This document shows, one piece after another, positions 22,076 to 38,760 of a stretch of 45,451 nt of DNA. The notes beneath the pieces are model-generated. The model was not told the DNA's origin, did not search any database, and was given only the letters and a program-made list of their open reading frames with translations. Source of the stretch: Clostridiales bacterium DTU070 (GTDB lineage Bacteria; Bacillota; Clostridia; DSM-8532); the NCBI GenBank assembly GCA_001513105.1, contig LFSH01000045.1, positions 1-45,451 of the forward strand. Direction: 5' to 3'. The translations under genes were made by a program, and so were the position numbers. How positions within the stretch are numbered: the first letter of the stretch is position 1; each line of letters begins with the position of its first letter.

Positions 22076-22873
22076 CTACATATGGCCTTTATATTTCATT
22101 ATTGCGGTTGTCGGGCAAACCTTTATGCATGCGCCGCAATTCTCGCATTTTACAGGATCTATTACCGCGCGCTGGTTAATAATTGAAATAGCACCTACAG
22201 GGCATTCCTTCACGCATTTTCTGCACGCGATACATGCCACTGTACAGTTTTTGCGCGCCACGGCGCCTTTTTCCTCGTTGCTGCATGCAACCGAATACTC
22301 GGATTTCGAAGGAACCATTTTTATTATCATTTTGGGGCATTCAGCCACACATTTACCGCATCCGCTGCATTTTTTCTCGTCTATTCTTGTAAGGCCGTTC
22401 TCCACCACAATTGCGTCAAACGCACATACCTTCTTGCAGCTTCCCATGCCGACGCATCCATAAACGCAGGATGAAGGACCGCCCGCCATCGTCGCAGCAG
22501 AGCGGCAGTCAATAATGCCGTCGTAATCAAATTTTACAGTAACTTTATCCCATGAACCGTTGCACATTACCCGAGCAACCGTCTTTTCACCTATTTGGGC
22601 CTCAACACCCATAATTTCGCTTAGCCTTGTTACAAGCTCACTTCCGCCTACAGGACACAGATTTATTTCAGCTCCGTTTACAATAGCCTCTGCATAATTA
22701 TCACAGCCGGTGAAACCACAGGCTCCGCAGTTTGCCCCCGGGAGAGCTTCACGTACTTTTTCCGTCCTGTCATCGCCCTTCACTTCGAATTTCACCGAAG
22801 CATACGAAAGTATAATACCGAAAACAAGCCCAAGCCCGGATACTATTGCTACGGGAATAAGAATCGCACCCAT
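22076..22873 (-). CDS. rnfB: Rnf complex subunit B (ferredoxin-type, multi Fe-S)
   Basis: 265 residues. RnfB is the entry point for electrons from reduced ferredoxin into the ferredoxin:NAD+ oxidoreductase. An N-terminal membrane helix (about 5-25) is followed by a 4Fe-4S domain (CGACGFTGCDNYAEAIVNG, near residue 48), and then several four-cysteine ferredoxin motifs: CVYGCVGMGSCKKVC, CSGCGKCVAECP, CIACRKCVKECP and CENCGACIKVCP. GAGGTG precedes the ATG at 22873. There are 105 bases between rnfA and rnfB, the widest spacing in the operon. It is the last rnf gene and is followed by a terminator. Confidence 0.97.
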   Translation of the reverse strand: MGAILIPVAIVSGLGLVFGIILSYASVKFEVKGDDRTEKVREALPGANCGACGFTGCDNYAEAIVNGAEINLCPVGGSELVTRLSEIMGVEAQIGEKTVARVMCNGSWDKVTVKFDYDGIIDCRSAATMAGGPSSCVYGCVGMGSCKKVCAFDAIVVENGLTRIDEKKCSGCGKCVAECPKMIIKMVPSKSEYSVACSNEEKGAVARKNCTVACIACRKCVKECPVGAISIINQRAVIDPVKCENCGACIKVCPTTAIMKYKGHM

Positions 22874-22978
22874 GCTGCCACCTCACTTTCAAACAAAATT
22901 CAGAATTTCCGCTTTTGCCAAAAACCGTTATTATACATTTATGCTTTTACCAAAAAACATTTAATGCAGTTAACATCA

Positions 22979-23560
22979 CTATATACCGAATAAGCCCTGG
23001 AACCCGAAGAACGCCACCGACACCAGCGCTGCCGCAACAAGCGTAATAGGAAGCCCCTGAAATGCAGGCGGTATATCATTCGTCTCAATTCTCTCCCTCA
23101 CGCCTGAAAACAGTACGAGCGCAAGTGTAAATCCAACTGCGGACGCGAATCCAAAAACCACAGCTTTTGCCAGGGTGTACTCTCTTTCCACAATGAGCAG
23201 TGCAGAACCTAAAACGGCACAGTTTGTCGTAATCAGCGGCAGATAAATCCCAAGCGCCCTGTAAAGCGGAGGCATGAACTTCTTCATAACCGTTTCCACC
23301 AACTGTACAAGCGCCGCTATGACAAGGATAAAAACTATCGTCCTCAGATAGGTAAGATCATACGGCTTAAGCAAATACTCATAAATAGGCCAGGTAACAA
23401 GAGACGATATTGTTATAACAAAAATTATGGCACCGCCCATGCCTACAGCAGTAGATGTTTTCTTGGATACACCCAAAAAAGGACAAATGCCCAGGAACTT
23501 TGACAAAACAAAATTCTCAACAAAAATTGCAGCAATGGCAATCAGTATTATTTCTTTCAT
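22979..23560 (-). CDS. rnfA: Rnf complex subunit A
   Basis: 193 residues, six hydrophobic segments; membrane subunit that forms the pseudo-symmetrical core with RnfE. The family segment FVENFVLSKFLGICPFLGVSK is near the N-terminus and contains the Cys of the membrane-embedded Fe-S site seen in Rnf/Nqr structures; the second half has PLITTNCAVLGSALL. ATG 23560 (GGAGGTG upstream) overlaps the rnfE stop by four bases (ATGA). The open frame continues further upstream, but those residues belong to the rnfE reading region. Confidence 0.96.
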   Translation of the reverse strand: MKEIILIAIAAIFVENFVLSKFLGICPFLGVSKKTSTAVGMGGAIIFVITISSLVTWPIYEYLLKPYDLTYLRTIVFILVIAALVQLVETVMKKFMPPLYRALGIYLPLITTNCAVLGSALLIVEREYTLAKAVVFGFASAVGFTLALVLFSGVRERIETNDIPPAFQGLPITLVAAALVSVAFFGFQGLFGI

Positions 23561-24243
23561 TGACAGCCACCTCCGTTGTTTCCTGCGGCACAACCGGCAC
23601 AGTTCATGCTGCATCCACCGGCAATTTCCTTGTTCCTGGCTTTAAGAACGGAAAATTTCTGGATGGCAGCAACCACAAAACCAAAAGCCAGAAAGCCTCC
23701 TGGAGGAAGAATCATAATAATTGCAGGATCAAACAGTTCCCTTGTAACGGGAATTCCCATCCATGTGCCTGCACCTAAGATTTCGCGAACCGAACCGATT
23801 ATCAGCAGTGCCAATGTAAAACCGGCACCCATTCCGAGGGCATCAAGAATGGAGCTTCCGACACCGTTTTTGCTTGCAAACATTTCGGCTCTTGCAAAGA
23901 TTATACAGTTTACAACAATAAGCGGAATAAATATTCCAAGTTCCTTGTATATATCCGGAAGATATGCATGGAGAAGCATATCTGCTATTGTTGTAAATCC
24001 GGCTATTACAGTAATAAATACCGGTATTCTCACCTTATCGGGAACTATCTTTCGAATCAGTGAAATAACTATATTTGAGCCCAACAGGACAAATGTAGCC
24101 GCTATTCCCATACCAATCCCGTTTTTCGCCATTGTTGTAACAGCAAGGGTGGGACAGGTACCAAGCACCAGTTTTAAAACCGGGTTTTCCCTGATAATTC
24201 CGTTGGTGAGGACTGAAAGCGTGTTTTTTGAAGACTTGGCCAT
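23557..24243 (-). CDS. rnfE: Rnf complex subunit E with Cys-rich C-terminal tail
   Basis: 228 residues, related to RnfA in its first 195 residues, with NPVLKLVLGTCPTLAVTT carrying the membrane Fe-S cysteine and PLIVVNCIIFARAEMF in the second half. Unusual is the end: after KARNKEIAGG come four cysteines spaced C-x3-C-x2-C-x7-C in a Gly/Asn-rich tail, which looks like a metal or Fe-S site and is not part of the core RnfE fold. GGAGGGGGG precedes the ATG. The gap to rnfG is two bases and it overlaps rnfA by four. Confidence 0.95.
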   Translation of the reverse strand: MAKSSKNTLSVLTNGIIRENPVLKLVLGTCPTLAVTTMAKNGIGMGIAATFVLLGSNIVISLIRKIVPDKVRIPVFITVIAGFTTIADMLLHAYLPDIYKELGIFIPLIVVNCIIFARAEMFASKNGVGSSILDALGMGAGFTLALLIIGSVREILGAGTWMGIPVTRELFDPAIIMILPPGGFLAFGFVVAAIQKFSVLKARNKEIAGGCSMNCAGCAAGNNGGGCQ

Positions 24244-24245
24244 TT

Positions 24246-24815
24246 TTAGTATCCCCCCTCCGTTATTGACTTAACCAGGTCCAAAGCAACCTGTACTCCT
24301 CCTGCAACAGCGCGGGACGTTATTGTTGCGCCGCTGATGGTCTCTATTTCATTGGCAGATTTTTTATTCTGCTTTACAACACTTAACGTATCGTTCACAG
24401 TGACTTCCTTGAACTGGCCTGTAAAACCAGGCTCTTTTGCTTTTGAACCCAGTCCGGGGGTTTCATTATTGTCACCGATAACAACTCCGGTGACCTTGCC
24501 CTCGGTATTTACTCCAACCGTCAGTTTCATCTCACCGCCATAACCCTTGGTTACAACATCAACTACATAACCTTTCAGGGTGTCTCCGCTGTAGGCTTCG
24601 TAAATACCGGATACCTGTTCAGGTTTTCCTTCGGTGTCTTTTTTAACAAACCTGTCAGCCTCACTCATCACTTCCTGCCTGAACTGTTCCTGTGCCTCTT
24701 CGGTCCTTTTCTGAATGATGTCTTTGGTTATACCGTTGACATATGCCAGCGCACCGGTTATTACCGCACATACCAGGAAAAGAATCAGCGTCGGCTTAAC
24801 AATACTATCCCACAC
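24246..24815 (-). CDS. rnfG: Rnf complex subunit G (covalent FMN)
   Basis: 189 residues. One N-terminal membrane helix (about 8-28) holds an extracytoplasmic FMN-binding domain. The flavinylation motif SGATITS is near residue 160; its threonine carries FMN through a phosphoester bond in the family. The start is GTG 24815, because GGAGG lies eight bases before it; this overlaps rnfD by 11 bases. A TTG at 24857 in the same frame has no ribosome binding site. It passes electrons between RnfD and the rest of the complex. Confidence 0.95.
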   Translation of the reverse strand: MWDSIVKPTLILFLVCAVITGALAYVNGITKDIIQKRTEEAQEQFRQEVMSEADRFVKKDTEGKPEQVSGIYEAYSGDTLKGYVVDVVTKGYGGEMKLTVGVNTEGKVTGVVIGDNNETPGLGSKAKEPGFTGQFKEVTVNDTLSVVKQNKKSANEIETISGATITSRAVAGGVQVALDLVKSITEGGY

Positions 24816-25773
24816 CTTTCTCACCTCCAAAAGCAACGGGTATGGTATGCCTGTCAATCAGCGGTGTTAAAATATTCATAAGAATTATTGCAAAGGAAAC
24901 TCCTTCGGGCATGTTCCCGTAAAGCCTGAACAGAACGGTAAGCAGCCCGCAGCCGGTTGCGTATATGACCGTTCCTTTCCGCGTCATCGGACTGGTTGCA
25001 TAGTCGGTAGCCATAAACACGGCCCCAATCAACAGCCCTCCCGCAAGAACGTGGTATAACGGATCTCCCGTAAACAGCCCTTCCGGTCCCAATACCCATG
25101 TCAATAAAGCCACCGTACCGGTATATATTACCGGGATATGCCAGGTAATGACCCCCCTGGCAAGCAGGTACACAAAACCCAGTAAAATGGCCAAAGCTGA
25201 AGTCTCTCCGATGCATCCGGGGATTTTACCCAAAAACATATCCATATATGAATACCAGTCAGTTCCACCCACCGGGGTAGCAGTAGCAGTCGCATCCAGC
25301 AGGCTAAGGGGTGTTGCCGAAGCAACAGCATCCGCAAGGGGTTCTGTCCATGTGGTCATCTGCTTTGCCCATGCAACAACGAGAATAACTCTTGCACCTA
25401 AGGCCGGGTTCATAAAGTTCTGGCCTAAACCGCCGAATAACTGTTTTATAAGACCTGTTGCAATTACAGCTCCGACAATGGCTATCCATACGGGAATTGA
25501 CGGGGGAAGGTTAAGAGCCAGTAAGAGTCCTGTTACAACCGCACTTAAATCCGAGATGGTCTGATCCCGTTTTAATCCCTTCCTCATAAGGTATTCGGTC
25601 AAAACCGAAGCTGCAATCGTAACGGCAATTATCAGTGCCGAGCGCAACCCAAAATATATGATTCCCGCCGCTGCTGGGGGGAGCAATGCAATTATCACAT
25701 CCAGCATTATTCTCTGGGTAGTGGCATTATCCCTTAAATGCGGAGATGAACATACAAATAACCTGTTTTCCAA
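24805..25773 (-). CDS. rnfD: Rnf complex subunit D (covalent FMN, membrane)
   Basis: 322 residues with about nine hydrophobic segments. SSPHLRDNATTQRIMLDVI is the family N-terminus. The motif ASATPLS, around residue 150, provides the threonine that binds FMN covalently. QNFMNPALGARV and FMATDYATSPMTRKG are conserved family segments. TTG 25773 has GAGGTGA five bases upstream and gives the usual MENRLFV start; GTG 25782 is the alternative. It overlaps rnfG and follows rnfC by about 45 bases. Confidence 0.95.
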   Translation of the reverse strand: MENRLFVCSSPHLRDNATTQRIMLDVIIALLPPAAAGIIYFGLRSALIIAVTIAASVLTEYLMRKGLKRDQTISDLSAVVTGLLLALNLPPSIPVWIAIVGAVIATGLIKQLFGGLGQNFMNPALGARVILVVAWAKQMTTWTEPLADAVASATPLSLLDATATATPVGGTDWYSYMDMFLGKIPGCIGETSALAILLGFVYLLARGVITWHIPVIYTGTVALLTWVLGPEGLFTGDPLYHVLAGGLLIGAVFMATDYATSPMTRKGTVIYATGCGLLTVLFRLYGNMPEGVSFAIILMNILTPLIDRHTIPVAFGGEKGVG

Positions 25774-25818
25774 TGTTTTCACCTCGATTTCTGTTCTTCG
25801 AAAACTTCTTGAATACCG

Positions 25819-27129
25819 TCAGGCCTTTTTCAACCTTCTGACCGCATCCTTGCCAAGGCGAATGGATTGCACAAGGTGCCTTTTTGACGGACATGAATAG
25901 GAACAGCTTCCGCATTCAATGCAATCAAGAATATGGTACCTGTTCAGTTCGTCAATTTTATTGGCCATTACAAGACGGTTTATTTCCAAAGGCAATAAAT
26001 TCATTGGACAGGCATCAATACATCTGCCACATCGAATACATGCCCATTCAGCCGGAAGGTCTCCTTCCTTTTTATCGAATGCCAGTATCGCATTGGTATT
26101 CTTTATCACCGATGTCTCAAGGGAGTACTGGGCAATGCCCATCATCGGTCCACCCATTAAAACCTTGTACGGGGTTGAACTGAAGCCCCCGCAGAAATCA
26201 AACACATCGCGTAAAGACGTTCCGATAGGCACATCAACATTTTTCGGCCGGTTAACCACCGGTCCGTCCACCGTAACCCGTTTCCGGATAAGAGGCATGC
26301 CTGTTTCAATGTAAGACGCTATAAACGAAACGGTGTTGACGTTCAGAACAATGCACCCTACATCCGCAGGCAGTTTACCCGAAGGAACCTTCCTTCCGGT
26401 AACCGAGTAAATCAGTGTTTTTTCTGCCCCCTGGGGATACCTCGAACGAAGGCTTTGAACTGATATCCTTTTATCTTCCTCAGCCAGCCCGGTCAAAATC
26501 ATAATTGCATCAGGCTTGTTGTTCTCAATGCCTATAACGGCCCGGGGAATATCAAGATAATCCAGCACAAGCCTGATGCCGTTGATTATGCCTGACGGAT
26601 TCTCAACCATTTCCCTGTAGTCAGAAGTAATATAAGGTTCACATTCTGCACCGTTTATGATTAAACAGTCAATCTCCTTGTCCTTTGGAGGATTCAGCTT
26701 AACATGAGTTGGAAAACCCGCCCCGCCCAGGCCGACAAGTCCCGCCTGCCGTATGGCTTTAAGAAAGTCATCCCTGTTTCTTACTTCCGGGGGAGAAATA
26801 TCCTCAGATATTTCCTGCTTCCCGTCTGTTTTTATTTCCACAGACATAACCAGCTTACCACTTGCATACAGCATGGGTTCAACTTTTGTCACCGTTCCCG
26901 AAACACTGGAGTGAACAGGTGAAGATACATATGCCTCGCTGTCGCCGATTTTTTGTCCGACCTTCACCGTATCACCCTGCTTAACAAGGGGCGTGCAGGG
27001 TGCACCTATATGTTGAATCATCGGGATTACTACCTTTTCAGGGGTACCGATAGCAGAAGTTTCCGACCCGGCAGTATTTTTGCGGTGCGGTGCAGGTACG
27101 CCGCCGCGAAATACCCATTTTAATGCCAT
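25819..27129 (-). CDS. rnfC: Rnf complex subunit C (NAD+-reactive)
   Basis: 436 residues. RnfC holds the site that reduces NAD+ with electrons coming through the complex. The N-terminal barrel-sandwich domain (VIPMIQHIGAPCTPLVKQGDTVKVGQ) is followed by the NuoF-like FMN/NADH fold (GLVGLGGAGFPTHVKLNPP, INGAECEPYITSDYREM) and two ferredoxin-type motifs (CIRCGRCIDACPMN, CIECGSCSYSCPS). ATG 27129 has GAGGTG six bases upstream; the open frame continues to 27186 but those codons run through the promoter region. First gene of the rnfCDGEAB operon, behind a good SigA promoter. Confidence 0.96.
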   Translation of the reverse strand: MALKWVFRGGVPAPHRKNTAGSETSAIGTPEKVVIPMIQHIGAPCTPLVKQGDTVKVGQKIGDSEAYVSSPVHSSVSGTVTKVEPMLYASGKLVMSVEIKTDGKQEISEDISPPEVRNRDDFLKAIRQAGLVGLGGAGFPTHVKLNPPKDKEIDCLIINGAECEPYITSDYREMVENPSGIINGIRLVLDYLDIPRAVIGIENNKPDAIMILTGLAEEDKRISVQSLRSRYPQGAEKTLIYSVTGRKVPSGKLPADVGCIVLNVNTVSFIASYIETGMPLIRKRVTVDGPVVNRPKNVDVPIGTSLRDVFDFCGGFSSTPYKVLMGGPMMGIAQYSLETSVIKNTNAILAFDKKEGDLPAEWACIRCGRCIDACPMNLLPLEINRLVMANKIDELNRYHILDCIECGSCSYSCPSKRHLVQSIRLGKDAVRRLKKA

Positions 27130-27176
27130 ACCATCACCTCGTTTCTTAAAAAAGTATAATAGAAGCACACAGATTA

Positions 27177-27205
27177 ATAATAGCACAAGACTTCTTAATT
27201 GTGAA
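27177..27205 (-). promoter_or_regulatory. SigA promoter for rnfCDGEAB
   Basis: Minus strand TTCACA (27200-27205), 17-base spacer, TATTAT (27177-27182); each hexamer matches five of six consensus positions. It is about 48 bases ahead of the rnfC start. A TTCACAA half-site over the -35 resembles half of a Rex operator, but the other half is missing. Confidence 0.68.
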
Positions 27206-27231
27206 TACGAAAAATGTTTTTTGTATACAAT

Positions 27232-27265
27232 ATAAAAACCGGCAAAACCTTATATTATGCCGGTT
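27232..27265 (-). terminator. Terminator after the hydrogenase-related cluster
   Basis: Minus strand AACCGGCA and TGCCGGTT form an 8-bp stem with a 13-base loop, followed by TTTTTATA. It sits four bases past the stop of the NuoCD-like gene and separates this cluster from rnfC, so the two are neighbours but probably separate transcripts. Confidence 0.87.
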
Positions 27266-27268
27266 CCC

Positions 27269-28642
27269 CTATTTTTCCATTCCTGAAAAATCAAGATCCA
27301 GGCTTGAAATCGCCAGAGGCAGTTCATTTAATTCTGTTCCCTCCAGGATATGACTTATGAACGAGAAATTAACCGAAGATGAATTCCTTATTTTTATATC
27401 CGTAACAATACCTTCATCGACACTCACATAAACAACCAGTTCTCCAAAAGCCTCCGGTTCGCGGACAATCAGTTCGCCTTTGTTCCTCATACCGGTAAAG
27501 GATTTCACGTCGCCTTTCGGCAGAACTTCAATTGCCTGATCAATCAGCGACAGCGACAGTAATGAATCGTCAAAAATAAGCATTGTACGTGTAAAACAGC
27601 TGCTTTCGCTGTATACGGGTGTTTTATAGGACAGTACGTAATAGGGCAGCCTTGACAGTTTACGTACATCCTCGGCAAAACCTGCCGAACGGGTAGCCCT
27701 GCCGGTCATAATCCTTGCAATGTTTTTGCCGGTTTTTCCGACAGAACTCATTCTTTCCGCAATGGACGGCGCGGCATTCCACCTGTCCCTTATGGCCGAT
27801 AATTCATGGACCATTTCCTGGAGAATGACATTAACCTGGAGTAATGTTTCCCTGTCGATATCACGGTTCAGGCCGCCCGGTACAAGGATACCCTTAAGCT
27901 GCGGGTCATCGGCTATCAGTGACGCTGCTTCGTTGAACAGCGTAATCAGCCTGAAAATGGCCGAATTGTCCGACAGAAGACCGAGACATTTTGTAATATG
28001 ACTTAACCTGTAAAGATTTGCGCGCAAAAAGCTCATTTCATTCAGGACAAGCCTTATATAATTTGCCTTGTCGGGAACGGCAATGTCGTTTATTTTCTCA
28101 ACCGCGTGTAAAAAAGCCAGCCCGATTGAAAATCCGTTCACTGAAGAAATCCTCTCCAGCATGTCCAGCACATGGGGTACCTTTTCCCCGATGCACAGTG
28201 CCTCAACTCCGCGGTGATTGTAGCCCGTTTCGGCATGAACTTCCCTGACGATATCATCCCTTATTGAAAAGCTGAAGAAAACCGGTTCCTGGAGCAGCGG
28301 ATGAAAGGGGCCCAGCTCAAAAATCAAATCATCGCTGTTTTCCTTTTTCCCGGCTTCCCCGTTTTCCGGTACGTAAAACTTTACAGGGAATGAATCGGCA
28401 ATTTCCTTCTGCATTTGGGCACCTTCGGAAAATATTCCCGTAACCGACGGAATTATGCTGTTTTTCGGAATATCGACATCCACCGAATCAATAAAACCGT
28501 CTTTTTCAAGCACATACGTCAGCCTTACAAAATCCTCCTCGCAGGCCCCCTTCATGAGCAGAAGCCTGTAATCCATGGACTTGTAGCCGTACAGCGTACC
28601 TGCTAATGCTCTTTTCTGTTTTTCACCAAAAGAACTGCTCAT
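27269..28642 (-). CDS. NuoC-NuoD-like fused subunit, hydrogenase-large-subunit family without NiFe cysteines
   Basis: 457 residues. The first 100 residues resemble NuoC/30-kDa subunits (IPSVTGIFSEGAQMQKEIADSF). From residue 109 the protein follows the group 4 hydrogenase large subunit/NuoD pattern (ELGPFHPLLQEP, then ETGYNHRGVEAL). The place where hydrogenases have RICGIC reads RISSVN (about residues 163-168), and the C-terminal DPCxxC is replaced by LDLDFSGMEK. All four nickel-iron cysteines are therefore absent and hydrogenase chemistry is ruled out by known requirements. NuoD also lacks them, but NuoD binds quinone. Best described as an energy-converting-hydrogenase-related (Ehr-type) subunit. 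It follows the NuoB-like gene by three bases. Partner reaction unknown. Confidence 0.82.
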   Translation of the reverse strand: MSSSFGEKQKRALAGTLYGYKSMDYRLLLMKGACEEDFVRLTYVLEKDGFIDSVDVDIPKNSIIPSVTGIFSEGAQMQKEIADSFPVKFYVPENGEAGKKENSDDLIFELGPFHPLLQEPVFFSFSIRDDIVREVHAETGYNHRGVEALCIGEKVPHVLDMLERISSVNGFSIGLAFLHAVEKINDIAVPDKANYIRLVLNEMSFLRANLYRLSHITKCLGLLSDNSAIFRLITLFNEAASLIADDPQLKGILVPGGLNRDIDRETLLQVNVILQEMVHELSAIRDRWNAAPSIAERMSSVGKTGKNIARIMTGRATRSAGFAEDVRKLSRLPYYVLSYKTPVYSESSCFTRTMLIFDDSLLSLSLIDQAIEVLPKGDVKSFTGMRNKGELIVREPEAFGELVVYVSVDEGIVTDIKIRNSSSVNFSFISHILEGTELNELPLAISSLDLDFSGMEK

Positions 28643-28645
28643 TGT

Positions 28646-29089
28646 TCATTCCTGCCTTTTATCATTACGATAATCGGGTTCCTTTACGCTCTCCATTGCC
28701 CTGACAACAGCTTCAAGTATTTCTGCAGAGCCGGGCGTGCAGCCGCGTATCCACGAGTTAACCGGCAGTATATCCTCTGCAGTATATAAACCATTGCCCT
28801 CCCTGCGGAACAGGCTGCCTGAACACGCACAGGCTCCCACGGCTATAACGGCTTTCGGGTCGGGCATTTTTCCGTATACTTCCAGGATCCTGTCCCGTGA
28901 TTTCCCGTTAATACAGCCGCATATAAGCAGGCAATCGGCATGTTTCGGATTCCCGGTTACAGATATGCCCTTTATTTCATTGTTACCGGACAAAGCCAAG
29001 AGGAACTGATGGGCGCAATCCATGCATCCGCCGGCTTGTATTGCAAATACCGATATCGACTTCGTCCGTATTTTGCTGAACCAGTTCAC
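28646..29089 (-). CDS. NuoB/EchC-like Fe-S subunit
   Basis: 147 residues. The family carries one proximal 4Fe-4S cluster next to the active site of the large subunit. Cysteine positions resemble group 4 hydrogenase small subunits: AGGCMDCAHQ at the N-terminus, VGACACSGSLF and IRGCTPGS later; an extra LLICGC is also present. The family word GNPKHADCLLI matches GNPRHADVL of EchC. The start chosen is GTG 29089, eight bases after AAGGAG; a GTG at 29098 would overlap that site. It is 45 bases after the NuoH-like gene. Cluster binding appears intact, unlike the large subunit's metal site. Confidence 0.82.
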   Translation of the reverse strand: MNWFSKIRTKSISVFAIQAGGCMDCAHQFLLALSGNNEIKGISVTGNPKHADCLLICGCINGKSRDRILEVYGKMPDPKAVIAVGACACSGSLFRREGNGLYTAEDILPVNSWIRGCTPGSAEILEAVVRAMESVKEPDYRNDKRQE

Positions 29090-29134
29090 ATCAAGCACTC
29101 CTTCTGCTACTTCAGATCCCTGACCTGACGTTGA

Positions 29135-29983
29135 TTATATCAGGTAAAACAGGCATATAAAGTTTATAACCGACATACTGCCTGCCCATCCCCAGGAATA
29201 CCTTGCTGCCTTCTTCCATTCCACCGTTGAAACAAACCTGTCGAAAAGCAGGAAGGAAAAATACAACAGTGAAACAATTATATATGATACAGGTTTCGGC
29301 AGGGGCAGGAAAACAGATATAATCCTGAGCCATACGCCAATTTCTGTCCATTGTGCAAGCTGGATTACCGCAAGACTCCACCCACTGTACGGTGTATAAA
29401 GGGCCGCGCCCAAAACAGTCTCTTCGTCTCCCGATACTCCAAAATTGAAGTATAAAAGGTTGCCCTTCATTAAAAGTATTACAAACAGCGATATAAGAGT
29501 AAACGGCAGGCTGATGACAAGACCGTTGATTTCCGAAAGGCCGGCAATTTCTTTAAGCCTGAGCGTACTGGCGGCTTTATAGATTGATGCGCCGGCAACA
29601 ATCGAAGCAAACAGCCAGATTATAAACCTTGAAATGCTTCTCCTTGCCGACATTCTGCCCGAAAACTCACCGCTGCTGAAAGCCCCGGTGATAACAAACA
29701 AATCCATCATCGAAAGAACCGAAACAACAAAAAGGAAATTATATCCGGCTACGGCCATGTACAATGCTATCAGGGAAAACAGGCACGAACCGGCGGCAAA
29801 AAAGCAGGCAAAGAAATTGGTATCCTCATCTTTCTTTTCGAACAGCTTCAACAGCCTGTAAACGGGCTGAAGAATGTATGTCCTGCTTTGACCGGGCATC
29901 AAGGATTTTATATAGTCATATGCAATGTACAAAAGCGGAACCGACAGGATTATGGCAAGAAACCAGGCAGTCACTTCAAGCAC
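29135..29983 (-). CDS. NuoH/EchB/HyfC-like membrane subunit
   Basis: 282 residues, about seven to eight membrane segments. The loop GQSRTYILQPVYRLLKLFEKK corresponds to the GRxGPxxxQPxxDxxKLxxK loop of EchB/HyfC, with the conserved Asp replaced by Arg. The second loop reads GDEETVLGAALYTPYSGW where relatives have E-E-x-x-G and EYSG; here Pro replaces that Glu. The C-terminus (ARYSWGWAGSMSVINF) is like EchB. GTG start at 29983 has GGGGGTGAG upstream and overlaps the upstream NuoL/M-like gene by 13 bases. NuoH links redox change to the membrane arm; the altered residues suggest changed coupling. Confidence 0.8.
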   Translation of the reverse strand: MLEVTAWFLAIILSVPLLYIAYDYIKSLMPGQSRTYILQPVYRLLKLFEKKDEDTNFFACFFAAGSCLFSLIALYMAVAGYNFLFVVSVLSMMDLFVITGAFSSGEFSGRMSARRSISRFIIWLFASIVAGASIYKAASTLRLKEIAGLSEINGLVISLPFTLISLFVILLMKGNLLYFNFGVSGDEETVLGAALYTPYSGWSLAVIQLAQWTEIGVWLRIISVFLPLPKPVSYIIVSLLYFSFLLFDRFVSTVEWKKAARYSWGWAGSMSVINFICLFYLI

Positions 29984-31302
29984 AATAAACTCACCCCCAA
30001 GGCAAGAGCAGTTGTTGTTATCCAGCTTATTCTTATTATCAGCCTGTAATTCATCCTGAACGGGATAATCGAAGAAATCACATGCTCGTCACAGATCTCC
30101 GGGGCCTGGCTTGTGTGCGTGAATATCGAAGAAATCCACATAATGATGTATGCTATTGTCAAAACCATTCCTGCAATAACCATCAGCACCGGCAGCGGAT
30201 TACCCGACAAAAAATCCCTGCTGGTATGTACATCATTGAAAACGGTGGCCACTGCCAATCCCGATATGCTCATAATCATACTTAAAATACTGTGCCTGTT
30301 CCTGTAATGCAGCAGGGCAAAACAGGCACCCGAGAAAACCAGGAGGCTTCCGTAAAAAATCATAAGCGTAATTATACCCCTGTACAGAACATGAAAGAAT
30401 GGACGGAATTTCAACAAAACCCCATATGGCACAATCAGCGAAAAAATGATCAGGTACAGTCCTGCTATCGGAACGGCCTTCGAATAGTCAAACCACGGGA
30501 CATAATTTTCCGGGATCAGAAGTCCCATTGAAACGACAGACATAATTATTACCAGTGCAGCAATCTCCGATACCTTTCCGAAACCTTGTGCAAAATCCTG
30601 CATTGCGAGGGAACCTGTTGCCCTGTAAGCAATAATGCTTACAATAAGAAACAGTGTAAGAGCAGCCTGCTGAATACAGGGAATTGCACGCGGGAAATAT
30701 CTCTTCGTTTCATCTTTCTCAAATGCTTTCAGGAACAAGAGGCCCGACAGATACTGCCATTGCCAGAACAAAAACAGGCCGGTCATGCTTTTAGCCGATA
30801 TCAACCCGGCAAAGGATGAAAGGAGAAGGGCAAATCCCATTCCAAAACGCTTAAGTACAACCGATGAGTTCCTGCTGTACTTTTTAAGGCAATAGATTAT
30901 AAACGGAACAAATGATATGACAATTACCGCGCCCGATACCAGCAGCAGCTTCTCCCTTAAATCGGAATACAGGAAGATATCAGGCTCTTCCGGGGAGATA
31001 AATATTTCGAAACAAACCAGAATAACAGCCTGGATAAAGGTAAATACCGATATTATATACTGCTTGTCCCTCAGTGAAAGCAAAAAAATAAAAAAGACGG
31101 TCACTGGAGATATTATTTTCCAAAACAGCGAAGGTACGGGAAAAACCGCTGAACTTTCATTTATACTCATAACAAAAGAGCATACGGCAAAGAAACATCC
31201 TGTTCCTGTTATTATAAGCATTGCCCCTTTTCCTTCAAGAAGCATTGCAACAAAGAATAAAACCAGCGGTACGAGCACAAGGCTTAACATTAATAAATCC
31301 AT
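29971..31302 (-). CDS. NuoL/M/EchA-like antiporter-type membrane subunit, divergent
   Basis: 443 residues with roughly 13 membrane segments. The region LFLFWQWQYLSGLLFL aligns with the family segment FxFWExMxLxSxxL, but the Glu that takes part in proton transfer is Gln. In the segment where relatives have K-x-A-x-x-PxHxWLPxA, it reads GLLIPENYVPWFDYSKAVP, so the usual Lys and His are absent. Weak resemblance to NuoL/M remains, and position in the cluster with NuoH-, NuoB- and NuoCD-like genes supports the call. ATG 31302 follows GGGGG by eight bases; the ATG at 31320 has none. First gene of the four-gene cluster. Confidence 0.7.
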   Translation of the reverse strand: MDLLMLSLVLVPLVLFFVAMLLEGKGAMLIITGTGCFFAVCSFVMSINESSAVFPVPSLFWKIISPVTVFFIFLLSLRDKQYIISVFTFIQAVILVCFEIFISPEEPDIFLYSDLREKLLLVSGAVIVISFVPFIIYCLKKYSRNSSVVLKRFGMGFALLLSSFAGLISAKSMTGLFLFWQWQYLSGLLFLKAFEKDETKRYFPRAIPCIQQAALTLFLIVSIIAYRATGSLAMQDFAQGFGKVSEIAALVIIMSVVSMGLLIPENYVPWFDYSKAVPIAGLYLIIFSLIVPYGVLLKFRPFFHVLYRGIITLMIFYGSLLVFSGACFALLHYRNRHSILSMIMSISGLAVATVFNDVHTSRDFLSGNPLPVLMVIAGMVLTIAYIIMWISSIFTHTSQAPEICDEHVISSIIPFRMNYRLIIRISWITTTALALGVSLLCLK

Positions 31303-31358
31303 AACCCTGTCCCCCAGCATAATGTATCTTTATTTAGTATATTCGTTTTTGCAATATT

Positions 31359-32180
31359 CTACAAGGACTTTTTTCCAGTCTGCGCTCCGCCCCTTTTTTC
31401 TGCAGCCCTGAAAGCAATTAATGCAACCGCAACCGCGGCATTAAGGGAATTAATTTCCCCATACATCGGAATTCTTAACAGTATATCGCAGTTTTCCCGG
31501 ACCAGGCGGCTGATTCCTTCTCCCTCGCTTCCGATTACAACTGCCAGGGGACTTTGGTAATCATAGTCGTAATACCGGGTCTCGCCTTCCATATCCGCTC
31601 CCGCTATCCATAAACCTTTTTCTTTTAAATCCCGGATTGTACCTGTAAGATTTGCTACCCTTGCAATTAAAATGTGTTCTGCAGCTCCTGCCGCAACCTT
31701 TGCAACCACGGGAGTCATGGCTGCAGAGCGCCTTTTTGGAATTATTATACCGTGCACTCCTGCACATTCTGCTGTTCTGATTATAGAGCCGAGGTTGTTC
31801 GGATCTGTAATACCGTCAAGTATGAAAATAAGCGGAAGCTGTGCCATATCTTCAGCTTTTTTCAGTATATCTTCAACTTCAGCGTACGAATAGGGTGATA
31901 CATCGGCAATTACTCCCTGGTGATTCCTTGTTTCCGACATCTGGTTCATTCCGGCTTTATCAAGGTATGAAACAACAATTCCTTTACTCCTTGCAACGGC
32001 GTATATCTTTTCCAGAACAGGATCTTTCAGCCCTTTTTCAATATAAATCCTGTTTATCGTGTGTTCCGCCTTCAGCGCTTCAAGGATCGGGTTTCTGCCT
32101 TCCAGCCTGCCTGTTGCGCCACCTGTTTCGTTTATGTTTTCACCGTTGTATTTTCTGTTTTCATTCCTCTTTCTTCCCAT
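31359..32180 (-). CDS. rlmB: 23S rRNA 2'-O-methyltransferase RlmB (SpoU/TrmH family)
   Basis: 273 residues. SpoU-type enzymes methylate ribose 2'-OH; RlmB acts on a guanosine of 23S rRNA. After a basic N-terminus comes the substrate-binding domain (GRNPILEALKAEHTINRIYIE) and then the knotted SPOUT domain with three motifs: ILDGITDPNNLGSIIRTAEC, VIGSEGEGISRLV and IPMYGEINSLNAAVAVALI. ATG 32180 lies inside the end of mrnC (20-base overlap) with AGGAAGGAG in range. rlmB directly after mrnC is the standard Firmicute order. Confidence 0.95.
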   Translation of the reverse strand: MGRKRNENRKYNGENINETGGATGRLEGRNPILEALKAEHTINRIYIEKGLKDPVLEKIYAVARSKGIVVSYLDKAGMNQMSETRNHQGVIADVSPYSYAEVEDILKKAEDMAQLPLIFILDGITDPNNLGSIIRTAECAGVHGIIIPKRRSAAMTPVVAKVAAGAAEHILIARVANLTGTIRDLKEKGLWIAGADMEGETRYYDYDYQSPLAVVIGSEGEGISRLVRENCDILLRIPMYGEINSLNAAVAVALIAFRAAEKRGGAQTGKKSL

Positions 32181-32595
32181 CGGGGTCTTCTCCTTCCTGT
32201 TCTATAATATCAGCGGCCATGTTGAGAATTTCTTCCAGGCGGTCGTATTTCCCAAGGAGGTACAGGTATCCAAGAACGGCTTCAAAGGCAGTTGCCCTGC
32301 GGTAATCCAAAACATCGGCATGCTTCGGAACGGTGGCCGATTTTGAGTTTCTTCCTCTTCTGAAAATAATTTTCTCATCATCATTAAGCCGGTCATACAG
32401 TTCACTTACAATCCTGCTCTGGGCCGAAGCCCTGACATAGTTTATCGCCTTTACATGCATCCTGTGTGCTGATTCCTTCCTTTTCATGACAAGGCGGCTT
32501 CTTACAAACAAATCAAACACCGAATCCCCCACAAAGGCCAGGACCAGGGGGGATAACTGGTTGACAAACTGGATATCCGCTTTTTCGGTTTTCAT
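32161..32595 (-). CDS. mrnC: Mini-ribonuclease 3
   Basis: 144 residues, a lone RNase III catalytic domain without a dsRNA-binding domain. MrnC trims 23S rRNA precursor in Bacillus. The acidic signature AFVGDSVFDLFVRSRLV corresponds to the family A-Y-I-G-D-A-x-Y-E, and the second half has YRRATAFEAVLGYLYLLG. ATG 32595 is preceded by AGGGAT eight bases away and gives the usual N-terminal length; ATG 32625 is the alternative. cysS, which normally lies just upstream, is not there. Confidence 0.93.
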   Translation of the reverse strand: MKTEKADIQFVNQLSPLVLAFVGDSVFDLFVRSRLVMKRKESAHRMHVKAINYVRASAQSRIVSELYDRLNDDEKIIFRRGRNSKSATVPKHADVLDYRRATAFEAVLGYLYLLGKYDRLEEILNMAADIIEQEGEDPDGKKEE

Positions 32596-32701
32596 ATAAT
32601 CAATCCCTGCTCTTATTATATCCATGAACCCGGAGCTTATTTCTCAAATGAATTATCGGGCCCAATAAGCATTCTGTTGCATCTTTATGCTCATATACAC
32701 A

Positions 32702-33250: not shown

Positions 33251-34540
33251 ATGAGCAGGGTTATTGATATCCGGGAAAAAGAATTCGAAAGCAGGGTGCT
33301 TAAAAGCGGTTTGCCCGCTGCGGTTATTTTTTACGGCAGCGACTGTCCTGTTTGCAGTTCCGTTATGCCGGTTTTCGAGCACCTGTCATCCGAGTACGGC
33401 GACAGAATGCTGTTTGCCAGGGTAAACAGGGACATAAACCGGGAGCTGGCCAAAAAGTACCATGTAAAGGCAAGTTCCACAATTGTGTTTTTCAGGGACG
33501 GCAGGGAGTTTTGCAAAACCCTTTCGGGATACACACGCAGACCCGAACTGAAGTGTGTCATTGAAGATGTTATAGGAAACAAATGTGAATGCCTCGAAAG
33601 AAATAAAACCGAATGCGATGTCCTGATACTCGGCGGAGGTCCTTCCGGTTTAACTTCCGCTATATATGCGGCGCGTTCAAAACTTTATACCGTGGTGGTA
33701 GACAACAGCATGGCCGGCGGACAGGTCGCAAGCACGTACCAGGTTGCGAATTACCCGGGAACAAACGGTATCATCAGGGGAATTGACCTTGTAAACAATA
33801 TGAAAAAACAGGCATTGGACTTCGGCGCCCGGATAGACGACATGCAGGATATTGTCGGAATAGATCTTTCAGGAGAAATGAAGAAGCTGACCACGAAGAA
33901 AAACGATTATTACGCCCGTTCAGTGATTATTGCAACAGGGGCCACCCCGCGCAAATTAAACGTTGAAGGTGAGGAAACATTTGCAGGGAAAGGTGTCCAT
34001 TACTGCGCAACATGTGACGGCGCATTCTATTATGACGCGGACGTAATCGTTGTGGGCGGCGGTGACGCAGCAGTTGAAGAGGCTGTATTCCTTACCCGCT
34101 TTGCCAGGAAGGTTACCGTCGTGCACCGCCGGGATCATTTCACAGCTTCAAAATTAGCCCAGGAAGAACTTTTTAAAAATCCGTCAATTGAAGTACTGTT
34201 TAATACCGAGGTAAAATCCATAAACGGAAAGGATTTTGTTACAGGTGTCACATTAATGGATAATAATAATAACAGAACATATGAAAAGGATACCGACGGA
34301 ATTTTCATCTATATCGGCTCACAGCCTCAAAGCGCCCTGTTTAAGGGACAGATAGAAACCGACGATAATGGTTACATTATAACCGATGAAAATTTACAGA
34401 CCTCGGTAAAAGGGGTTTTTGCCGCCGGTGATGTCAGGAGAAAAGCTGTAAGGCAGATTACAACCGCCGTAGCAGACGGTTCGGTTGCGGCAATCATGGC
34501 AGAACGCTACCTGGCGGCAGCCGGACATGAAAAAACATGA
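33251..34540 (+). CDS. trxB: Thioredoxin domain fused to thioredoxin reductase
   Basis: 429 residues. Residues 1-108 form a thioredoxin fold with a CPVC redox pair (Cys32-Cys35). From about residue 118 a complete low-molecular-weight thioredoxin reductase follows: FAD motif LGGGPSGLTSAIYAAR, active site CATC (252-255), pyridine-nucleotide motif GGGDAAVEEA and the C-terminal FAD motif GVFAAGDVRRK. The phosphate-binding motif HRRxxxR is HRRDHFT (292-298): the last Arg is Thr. That could alter NADPH preference, but two Arg remain. Fusion puts the electron donor and first acceptor in one chain. AAAGGGGG precedes the ATG. It is 22 bases ahead of a glutaredoxin-like gene. Confidence 0.93.
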   Translation: MSRVIDIREKEFESRVLKSGLPAAVIFYGSDCPVCSSVMPVFEHLSSEYGDRMLFARVNRDINRELAKKYHVKASSTIVFFRDGREFCKTLSGYTRRPELKCVIEDVIGNKCECLERNKTECDVLILGGGPSGLTSAIYAARSKLYTVVVDNSMAGGQVASTYQVANYPGTNGIIRGIDLVNNMKKQALDFGARIDDMQDIVGIDLSGEMKKLTTKKNDYYARSVIIATGATPRKLNVEGEETFAGKGVHYCATCDGAFYYDADVIVVGGGDAAVEEAVFLTRFARKVTVVHRRDHFTASKLAQEELFKNPSIEVLFNTEVKSINGKDFVTGVTLMDNNNNRTYEKDTDGIFIYIGSQPQSALFKGQIETDDNGYIITDENLQTSVKGVFAAGDVRRKAVRQITTAVADGSVAAIMAERYLAAAGHEKT

Positions 34541-36519: not shown

Positions 36520-38760
36520 ATGAAAGTATTGCATTTAATAGGCGGAGGCGACGAAGGCGGGGCCAAAAGCCACGTATTGTCGCTGGTACAACAGCTTGGA
36601 AACCATATAAGTGTTAAACTGATAAGCCTGCGTCCGGGCCCTTTTGCCGATGATGCAAAGAAAATGGGCATTGACGTGGAAGTAATACGCACCGGCAATA
36701 TTTTCAGGGACATCAGCCTGGTCAGGGAAATTGTTGTCAGCGGGAAATATGATATTCTTCACACCCACGGTGCGAAAGCCAATATGATTGGTGTTTTTAT
36801 CAAAAAGCAGACAAAAATCCCGGTTGTCTCCACCATACACAGCGATTACCGGCTGGATTACCTGAACAGTATCCTGAAAATGTATTCATTCGGCCTGATT
36901 AATACGGTGTCCCTAAGGTTTTTGGATTATTACATCGCCGTTTCGAACAACTTCAGGGAGATGCTTATAAAAAGGAGTTTTCCGCCGCAGCGGATTTATA
37001 CCGTGTATAATGGCATTCCCTTTGATAATACTATAGATATAATGCCGAAGGAAGACTTTGCAAAAAAATACGGGTTCACCGTCGAACCAGGCGATATTTT
37101 CATTGGTATCCTTGCAAGGCTGGACCCTGTTAAAGGCCATACAGTTTTCATCGATGCAGCGGCAAAGGTACTGAAGAAGTATCCGAGGGCAAAATTCCTT
37201 ATAGGCGGACCGGGTGATGACCTAAGGCCATCCCTTGAAAAAAGGGCAGCAAGGCTTGGAATCTCTGACAATGTATTCTTCCTTGGCATGGTAACCGAGC
37301 CGTTTTCGTTCCTGAGCCTAATAGATATAAACGTTCTTGCGTCCTACAGCGAAAGTTTTCCGTATGCCATACTTGAAGGCGCCAGGCTTGGAAAAGCCAC
37401 GGTATCAAGCAGAGTTGGCGGCCTTGAGGACCTGTTTGTCCACAGTGAGAACGGGTACCTGTTCACCCCGGGAGACAGCGATGCCCTTGCAGGTTACCTG
37501 ATCGAGCTGATAGGCAGCGAAGACAAAAGACGGATATTCGGAGAAAGGCTTTATAACACCGCCAGGGAGAAGTTTTCATTAAAGTCAATGACAGAAACCC
37601 AGCTGAACATATATAACAGGATATTATCACAGGTGAGACAGTCGAAGGCCGACGGAAAAACATACGATATTGCGATACTGGGCTATTATGGTTACCGCAA
37701 CAGCGGCGATGACGCAATTTTGAAATCCATAATAGAACAGCTGAGACAGAAAAACGATGAATTGTCCATTGTGGTTTTGTCAAATAACCCTTATGAAACC
37801 CGTACCCTTTACAGGGTGCAGTCGGTACACCGCTTCCACCCGTTCAGGGTTCCCGCCGTACTGTCAAAAACAAGGCTGTTTATCGCCGGCGGAGGAACCC
37901 TTATACAGGATGACACAAGCAGCAGATCACTGTGGTTTTATCTCTCCATGCTGCATCTTGCTAAGAAAAAAGGAGCCCGGACCGTGCTTTTTGCAAACGG
38001 CCTGGGTCCGCTTACGGGGAAAAGGAACCGCAGGGCGGCATCAAGGATACTTAACAGGATGGACGCTATAACGCTGAGAGATTCCTATGCCTACCAGGAG
38101 TTATCGTCCCTTAATGTAACAAAACCCGTTATAAGAATTACCGCAGACCCTGCTTTAACCCTTACTTCCTGCGATCTGTCAAAGGGTTACGGGATCCTTG
38201 AAAAGGAAGGTATTCCGACCGACAGGAAACTGGTAGCGCTGTGTTTCAGAAAGTGGAAAAAAGTAAAGAATGCCGTACGCATCCTGGCATCGCTTGCTGA
38301 CAGAATAGCAGCCGATTTTAATGCCACACCTGTATTCATATCAATGCAGTATCCGAACGATCTGCGCTTTGCTAAAAAAGTCCTTGGCAGCATGACACAA
38401 AAAGGCTATATCCTGTCCGAAAGATATACCGTCGATGAAACCCTTTCGGTTATAGGCAATACAAGCCTTGTCATCGGCATGCGCCTGCATTCGCTGATAT
38501 ACGCCGCCAATCTGAATATACCCATGGTAGGGCTTGCTTATGAACAAAAGGTGGGCTTTTTCATGCAGTCAATAAACCAGCCCTACGTGGACTGGAATGA
38601 AAACTTCAGCATGGATGAGCTTATGGAAAAACTGAACAGTGTATGGAATAACCATGACGGAATAAAGGAGGAACTGAAGAAATCCAAGCCGCTTCTTGAA
38701 AAGAAGGTGACCGATTCGGTGGAGCTTACCCTTTCTTTTCTGCCCCGGAAGCCGAAGTGA
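36520..38760 (+). CDS. csaB: GT4 glycosyltransferase fused to CsaB polysaccharide pyruvyltransferase
   Basis: 746 residues in two domains. Residues 1-370 form a GT-B glycosyltransferase of the GT4 type: IGGGDEGGAKSHVLSL at the start, the nucleotide-sugar segment GILARLDPVKGH and the acceptor helix SYSESFPYAILEGA. From residue 381 a full pyruvyl transferase of the CsaB family follows: LGYYGYRNSGDDAIL, FIAGGGTLIQDDTSSRSL, ANGLGPLTGK and GMRLHSLIYAANLNIP. CsaB adds pyruvate ketals to secondary wall polymer, which SLH-domain proteins bind. Both enzymes are usually separate. AGGGAG precedes the ATG. The 3' end overlaps the convergent ligase-like gene by 35 bases. Confidence 0.92.
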   Translation: MKVLHLIGGGDEGGAKSHVLSLVQQLGNHISVKLISLRPGPFADDAKKMGIDVEVIRTGNIFRDISLVREIVVSGKYDILHTHGAKANMIGVFIKKQTKIPVVSTIHSDYRLDYLNSILKMYSFGLINTVSLRFLDYYIAVSNNFREMLIKRSFPPQRIYTVYNGIPFDNTIDIMPKEDFAKKYGFTVEPGDIFIGILARLDPVKGHTVFIDAAAKVLKKYPRAKFLIGGPGDDLRPSLEKRAARLGISDNVFFLGMVTEPFSFLSLIDINVLASYSESFPYAILEGARLGKATVSSRVGGLEDLFVHSENGYLFTPGDSDALAGYLIELIGSEDKRRIFGERLYNTAREKFSLKSMTETQLNIYNRILSQVRQSKADGKTYDIAILGYYGYRNSGDDAILKSIIEQLRQKNDELSIVVLSNNPYETRTLYRVQSVHRFHPFRVPAVLSKTRLFIAGGGTLIQDDTSSRSLWFYLSMLHLAKKKGARTVLFANGLGPLTGKRNRRAASRILNRMDAITLRDSYAYQELSSLNVTKPVIRITADPALTLTSCDLSKGYGILEKEGIPTDRKLVALCFRKWKKVKNAVRILASLADRIAADFNATPVFISMQYPNDLRFAKKVLGSMTQKGYILSERYTVDETLSVIGNTSLVIGMRLHSLIYAANLNIPMVGLAYEQKVGFFMQSINQPYVDWNENFSMDELMEKLNSVWNNHDGIKEELKKSKPLLEKKVTDSVELTLSFLPRKPK

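Follow-up and report, generated by a model that had tools for sequence, protein, structure and literature searches.

What does a complex related to the group 4 hydrogenases do once its active site and its known ion path are gone? The question is raised by four adjoining genes, called here L, H, B and D, in a stretch of 45,451 nucleotides (contig LFSH01000045.1, hereafter the window) from the 2.89 Mb draft genome of Clostridiales bacterium DTU070. Judged from sequence, these genes, which stand directly beside rnf, encode a complex derived from Ech that has no nickel-iron (NiFe) site and is not a hydrogenase, and both of its membrane subunits appear to have lost nearly all the residues known to make up the ion path of complex I, Mbh and formate hydrogenlyase (FHL). 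Ehr-type relatives are usually still regarded as ion pumps. Here, a natural group of conserved complexes would have lost both the hydrogenase site and the known pump path and, if these complexes are functional, the architecture of complex I has been retained for something other than pumping. In the open-access literature, we found no paper describing the four-gene module as such.

Four Ech-like genes beside rnf

The four genes are intact, lie on the minus strand at 27269-31320 and are flanked by rlmB and rnfCDGEAB (Table 1). L and H overlap by 13 bases, while H is separated from B by 36 bases and B from D by 3. An initial annotation of the window had placed NuoL/M-like, NuoH-like, NuoB-like and fused NuoC-NuoD-like genes here, with rnf in the order CDGEAB and with no NuoI/EchF or NADH module adjoining, and our analysis agrees on all these points, the neighbours being mrnC-rlmB and rnfC. 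Against Pfam and NCBIfam, D matched Complex1_49kDa (3e-20), B matched Oxidored_q6 (3e-16) and H matched NADHdh (3e-8); L matched no family in these collections. The NuoL/M-like reading of L is nevertheless right because its profile matches that of clostridial EchA (hhalign, probability 98.9, E 3e-17, 493 columns); the corresponding match of H to EchB reached a probability of 99.9. Among PDB sequences, D was closest to HycE, MbhL and Nqo4 and B to MbhJ (2e-22), and chain L of entry 6u8y, of interest for Mbs/Mbx, matched D weakly (2.7e-9; the 6u8y sequence is outside the tree described below).

The set was found in 11 of the 32 genomes of the window's GTDB family, in four genera, and the residues given below were read in these 11 genomes and in 25 clostridial Ech. 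L is about 170 residues shorter in the window's genus than in the sister genera, and the deleted stretch covers transmembrane helices (TM) 11 and 12. H, B and D share a single reading frame in the window (27272-29983, minus strand), with no more than one stop codon and a short linker between neighbouring genes, which is untrue of most relatives.

B and D were modelled as a read-through in which the in-frame stop of B served as a linker (pLDDT 72.5, pTM 0.53). The fold of NuoD/HycE is preserved in this model, with a best Z of 23.8 and a root-mean-square deviation of 2.2 over 243 residues; its interface and the C-terminus of D are unreliable. The model of L was poor (pLDDT 56); it predicts 14 long helices and its best-ranked PDB matches are NuoL/MrpA at E ~0.1, a weak structural match.

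Table 1. Positions in the window of the four genes, their neighbours and the elements between D and rnfC
Feature	Coordinates	Strand	Remarks
L, EchA/NuoL-like antiporter subunit, degenerate	29971..31320	-	probable start 31302 (family-conserved)
H, EchB/NuoH-like membrane anchor, E-channel glutamates lost	29135..29983	-	Pfam NADHdh 3e-8; hhalign EchB
B, EchC/NuoB-like small subunit	28646..29098	-	complete CxxC...C...C [4Fe-4S] motif (C25, C28, C90, C120); family-specific C62
D, fused EchD-EchE (NuoC/D)-like large subunit	27269..28642	-	S166, N169, D451 and G454 at NiFe ligand positions; family-specific invariant C150
rlmB and mrnC, conserved upstream genes	31359..32625	-	same strand as the set
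rnfCDGEAB, conserved neighbour, outside the complex itself	22076..27186	-	
Terminator-like hairpin with T tail	27231..27268	-	directly after the D stop; -15.8 kcal/mol; not among consensus-scan matches
TTGTATACAAAAAACA, conserved putative operator upstream of rnfC	27215..27230	-	TTGTATACAA core in the D-rnfC gap

Replaced NiFe ligands and a retained cluster motif

At the positions of the four NiFe cysteines, D has S166, N169 (serine in two genomes), D451 and glycine, alanine or serine at 454 in 11/11 genomes, where all 25 clostridial Ech have cysteine. The large subunit is thus without a NiFe site, as had been claimed, and the words GPFHP, NHRGVE and RISSVN read as annotated. The further claim that a C-terminal cysteine motif was absent needs rewording: the cysteines are gone, but the motif is replaced rather than missing, since DPCISCTER of Ech becomes DLDFSGMEK in D, residue for residue, just as RISSVN replaces the RICGIC-type motif. 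The surroundings of the site have changed as well. Two HycE canopy residues, R478 and S283 (roles of canopy and loop residues from PMC9474812), are lost in D and invariant in 25/25 Ech. The position of HycE D529 holds D, E or N and that of the loop glutamate E193 holds E or Q.

HypD is required to build the NiFe site. It was not found in 10 of the 11 set-bearing genomes, a closed congeneric genome included, which argues against a hydrogenase with unusual ligands. In G012, the one set-bearing genome where HypD was found, a canonical, cysteine-bearing group 4 hydrogenase is present besides the set; throughout the family, HypD is confined to genomes in which a further, group 4-like large subunit was matched. 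The locus itself, between rlmB and rnfC, encodes no EchF; an unlinked EchF was not searched for.

The small subunit, for its part, keeps the four [4Fe-4S] cysteines C25, C28, C90 and C120 in 11/11 genomes, in line with the initial annotation, and the family has gained two new invariant cysteines, B-C62 and D-C150.

Ion-path residues of the membrane subunits

In L, Glu-TM5 (E135 of HycC) is replaced by glutamine, Lys-TM7 and Lys-TM8 are lost and the histidine and lysine of TM11 are lost or deleted, each in 11/11 genomes; Lys-TM12 is retained in one of the 11 by the alignment used. In H, the equivalents of the E-channel glutamates E130, E138 and E203 of HycD are lost in all 11, and a few charged residues persist: K46, K50, R115 and, at position 94, an acidic residue. 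All the listed ion-path residues of L and H are invariant in the 25 clostridial Ech. In FHL, mutating E138 of HycD, or E199/E201/E203, cuts H2 production by 98-99% (PMC9474812). A minimal electron-driven ion pump, one of the two roles proposed in the initial annotation, is not supported by this pattern.

Phylogeny and relation to known complexes

In the large-subunit tree, the family is monophyletic (100/100) and sister to Ech (98/96), on a stem of 2.7 changes per column that calls for caution; two long-branch rows, L042 and L182, had been removed as distorting. The D sequences thus lie next to the active Ech and not among them with their cysteines lost to error, a possibility raised in the initial annotation. 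Membership in a Cys-less HycE-related clade (with Hyc/Hyf) and in a second Cys-less clade was rejected by the approximately unbiased (AU) test (p 0.035 and 0.024, respectively). Because the family groups with Ech, apart from the Cys-less HycE-related clade, its NiFe ligands were probably lost independently of that clade. Six further large subunits (L176, L177, L178, L180, L184 and L186) form another group 4-like clade, with GPxHPGMHGN and altered cysteine motifs (RICV...; VC or IC near the C-terminus) and, at most loci read, two antiporter subunits.

Gene order and phylogeny together identify the set as a derived Ech hydrogenase: it keeps the order echA-B-C-D-E, all four subunits are homologous to those of Ech and the large subunits are sister clades. 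It differs from Ech, which is described as having six subunits including EchF (2[4Fe-4S]), in that EchD and EchE are fused, EchF is lost, the NiFe ligands and pump residues are lost, HypD is mostly missing and L is shortened in one genus. The Ehr complexes are group 4 relatives without Ni/Fe-coordinating residues, whose reaction is unknown and whose Mrp antiporter-like subunits are suspected of charge translocation (PMC6349859). The set shares with them a group 4-related large subunit without Ni/Fe ligands and falls under their definition, so the earlier label "Ehr-type" is loosely right; in the tree, the family groups with Ech and the sampled Cys-less HycE-related clade branches elsewhere (published Ehr were compared by description only).

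Mbs/Mbx of Pyrococcus furiosus is likewise related to complex I and has a changed NiFe site. A ferredoxin-like subunit and several subunits of Mrp type belong to Mbs, whereas here we find just two degenerate membrane subunits and no ferredoxin-like subunit at the locus. FHL (HycBCDEFG) resembles the set in its minimal membrane arm, with one antiporter-like and one ND1-like subunit, and in its fused C/D large subunit, but it has an active NiFe site, a HycB and HycF electron chain and an intact E-channel (PMC9474812), and the set falls in a separate clade without an active NiFe site. As for the Nuo complex I, B has an Ech-like CxxC rather than the tandem-Cys N2 motif of NuoB, the large subunit reads GPFHPLL(Q/P)EP and is not of the NuoD type, and no NuoEFG adjoins the set.

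Distribution, synteny and selection

The order mrnC-rlmB-L-H-B-D-rnfCDGEAB is found in 11/11 set-bearing genomes, save truncations at contig ends. Lack of conserved co-occurrence in related genomes had been named as evidence against a four-gene unit; instead, all 11 genomes that have the large subunit have the four genes. A large-subunit profile found nothing comparable in 391 Clostridia outside the family, the next best score being 227 bits against at least 744 in the set-bearing clade, and a small-subunit profile run on 398 genomes of the phylum gave 263 bits for the family and 123 for the next best. A collection of named genomes returned nine metagenome-assembled genomes (MAGs) labelled Clostridiaceae, Clostridiales, Ruminiclostridium or Thermoclostridium and one remote Omnitrophota match.

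The set is under purifying selection: between the window and the nearest genome, the ratio of nonsynonymous to synonymous substitution rates (dN/dS) is 0.10-0.16 for the set proteins, compared with 0.09 for rlmB and ~0.06-0.07 for rnfC and rnfD, so that the set proteins evolve faster than the rnf proteins. The frames are intact in the set-bearing genomes, except for a split L in one draft MAG (L030), and because the same substitutions recur in 11 genomes with intact frames, chance or a sequencing error can be excluded; together with the dN/dS values, this also rules out a pseudogene. The rnfC genes of the 11 set-bearing genomes form one clade (100/98), which makes a single gain or retention of the set, with vertical inheritance afterwards, probable. 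In family genomes that lack the set, rnf adjoins other genes and, in those checked on one contig, rlmB lies 7-11 kb upstream of rnfC on the same strand.

Another L-H-B-D set that stands alone and has no NiFe cysteines was seen at L182 (525-4529), with WQ for WE in L and away from rnf. It is known from one incomplete genome of another Clostridia family, where the same decay may have taken place independently.

Possible function

What, then, could such a complex do? The reading that we favour, and that might in our judgement equally well hold or fail, is that of a membrane-anchored redox module with one [4Fe-4S] cluster that neither pumps nor handles H2 and that acts with Rnf or ferredoxin; of the functions of its Ech ancestor, two would have been given up and a third retained. 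The single cluster would lie at the B/D interface and, in the absence of EchF, would take electrons from, or pass them to, a soluble ferredoxin or RnfB/RnfC without an intermediary. The cavity that once held NiFe has become polar (S166, N169, D451) and would be a docking or small-molecule reduction site, with D-C150 and B-C62 possibly near it, and the complex would supply, draw on or adjust the ferredoxin/NADH couple on which Rnf acts. A module serving Rnf or a soluble ferredoxin, the other role proposed in the initial annotation, is our best guess. A more specific version is rather improbable as a whole, namely that the cluster, D-C150 and B-C62 make up a redox site that has newly evolved where B meets D, in a module that helps Rnf by letting electrons in or by reducing small molecules, with pumping and H2 catalysis abandoned.

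Two other readings are close rivals of the favoured redox module. The set may be a pseudoenzyme scaffold or a redox sensor that holds or regulates Rnf, or a membrane pool of ferredoxin enzymes, with no net electron transfer: this would agree with the loss of catalytic and pump residues beside a retained fold, membrane anchors and one cluster motif, with the conserved neighbourhood and with the faster evolution relative to rnf, but the retention of the B/D core and of every cluster ligand favours a redox role, and we consider it possible yet doubtful. It could also be a new reductase, in which a small substrate (e.g. a sulfur species or a disulfide) would enter the former NiFe cavity and be reduced there, directly at the cluster of B, as has been proposed for Mbs, but with no pumping. 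The invariant D-C150 and B-C62, and S166 and D451 at former ligand positions, are suggestive here, and Mbs is a precedent for reduction in a NiFe-type pocket (cited in PMC9474812); no substrate-linked gene stands beside the set, however, and the C-terminus of D is of low confidence in the model, so that such a reductase is distinctly unlikely. Least probable, and very unlikely in our view, is a true minimal pump in which ferredoxin electrons passing to an acceptor drive H+ or Na+ through H and L. Every genome retains two membrane subunits of the complex I type, a few charged residues are left in H and a divergent path is conceivable. Such a pump would nevertheless have to work without the antiporter and E-channel residues that every Ech examined retains and, in the window's genus, without the segment covering TM11-TM12. 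Nor is a quinone acceptor evident, since no menA (quinone synthesis) scored above the cut-off in the family. A quinone reductase was considered separately and is unlikely, menA matches being below the cut-off only and a NuoD-type quinone motif being absent.

Several observations weigh against the favoured redox module and its link to Rnf. The residue losses in L were inferred from low-identity alignments; the HycC variants E135A, K239A, H328A and K336A showed no significant loss of H2 in vivo, in assays of H2 and not of pumping (PMC9474812); and a non-canonical ion path is conceivable. The cluster cysteines of B may be kept for folding and not for electron transfer. Gene position is all that ties the set to Rnf, and other genes of the same stretch are also partly syntenic; this, and the position of rlmB 7-11 kb upstream in set-free genomes, mean that the conserved adjacency to rnf may be a single inherited event in a fairly syntenic stretch. 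Finally, rnfC has its own putative operator and, in the window, a terminator-like hairpin before it, so that the set and rnf may or may not be co-transcribed, and no operator-like site was seen before the set itself in the window. If the complex is functional, these four genes beside rnf would offer a simple system for learning about a role other than pumping, and a cultured relative with a closed genome would in principle be open to knock-outs.

The Clostridium stercorarium locus

A "dimeric Ni-Fe hydrogenase" was reported to be co-located with Rnf in Clostridium stercorarium DSM 8532, and peptides covered only some components of the two clusters (PMC4102724). In a closed congeneric genome of 2.97 Mb (G001), the set described here contains the sole Complex1_49kDa gene and lies beside rnf; because G001 has just this one, the reported hydrogenase of C. 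stercorarium is very probably the B/D pair of this set. The pair is thus possibly expressed in that species, and its name is probably a misannotation, the NiFe site that it implies being absent from the sequence. C. stercorarium is a biofuel candidate, and hydrogen production should probably not be ascribed to this "Ni-Fe hydrogenase" near Rnf.

Transcription and a putative operator

The gap of 38 bases between rlmB and L has no terminator in the window, and mrnC-rlmB and the set are probably on the same transcript. A terminator had been annotated after the set: the hairpin is present in the window and is not obvious in the other ten genomes. The TTGTATACAA palindrome, in contrast, occurs in the D-rnfC gap of 11/11 set-bearing genomes; in most cases an A-rich stretch comes next, with TTCACA beyond it. 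The 15-base operator-like site is present one to three times per genome in the 12 genomes searched, and its reversed control gave none. As TTGTATACAAAAAAC (L192-L213), it is also found before pta-ack-like genes in many genomes of the family, and three genomes from the window's genus have it before a NuoE-like gene (both names as read from translations). Because of its position before pta-ack-like genes, the rnf genes of this clade may share a putative small regulon with acetate formation.

Other genes of the window

Two gene fusions lie elsewhere in the window, both on the plus strand: a thioredoxin domain fused to a thioredoxin reductase-like protein (33251-34540), and a fusion of a family 4-type glycosyltransferase with a polysaccharide pyruvyl transferase (36520-38760).

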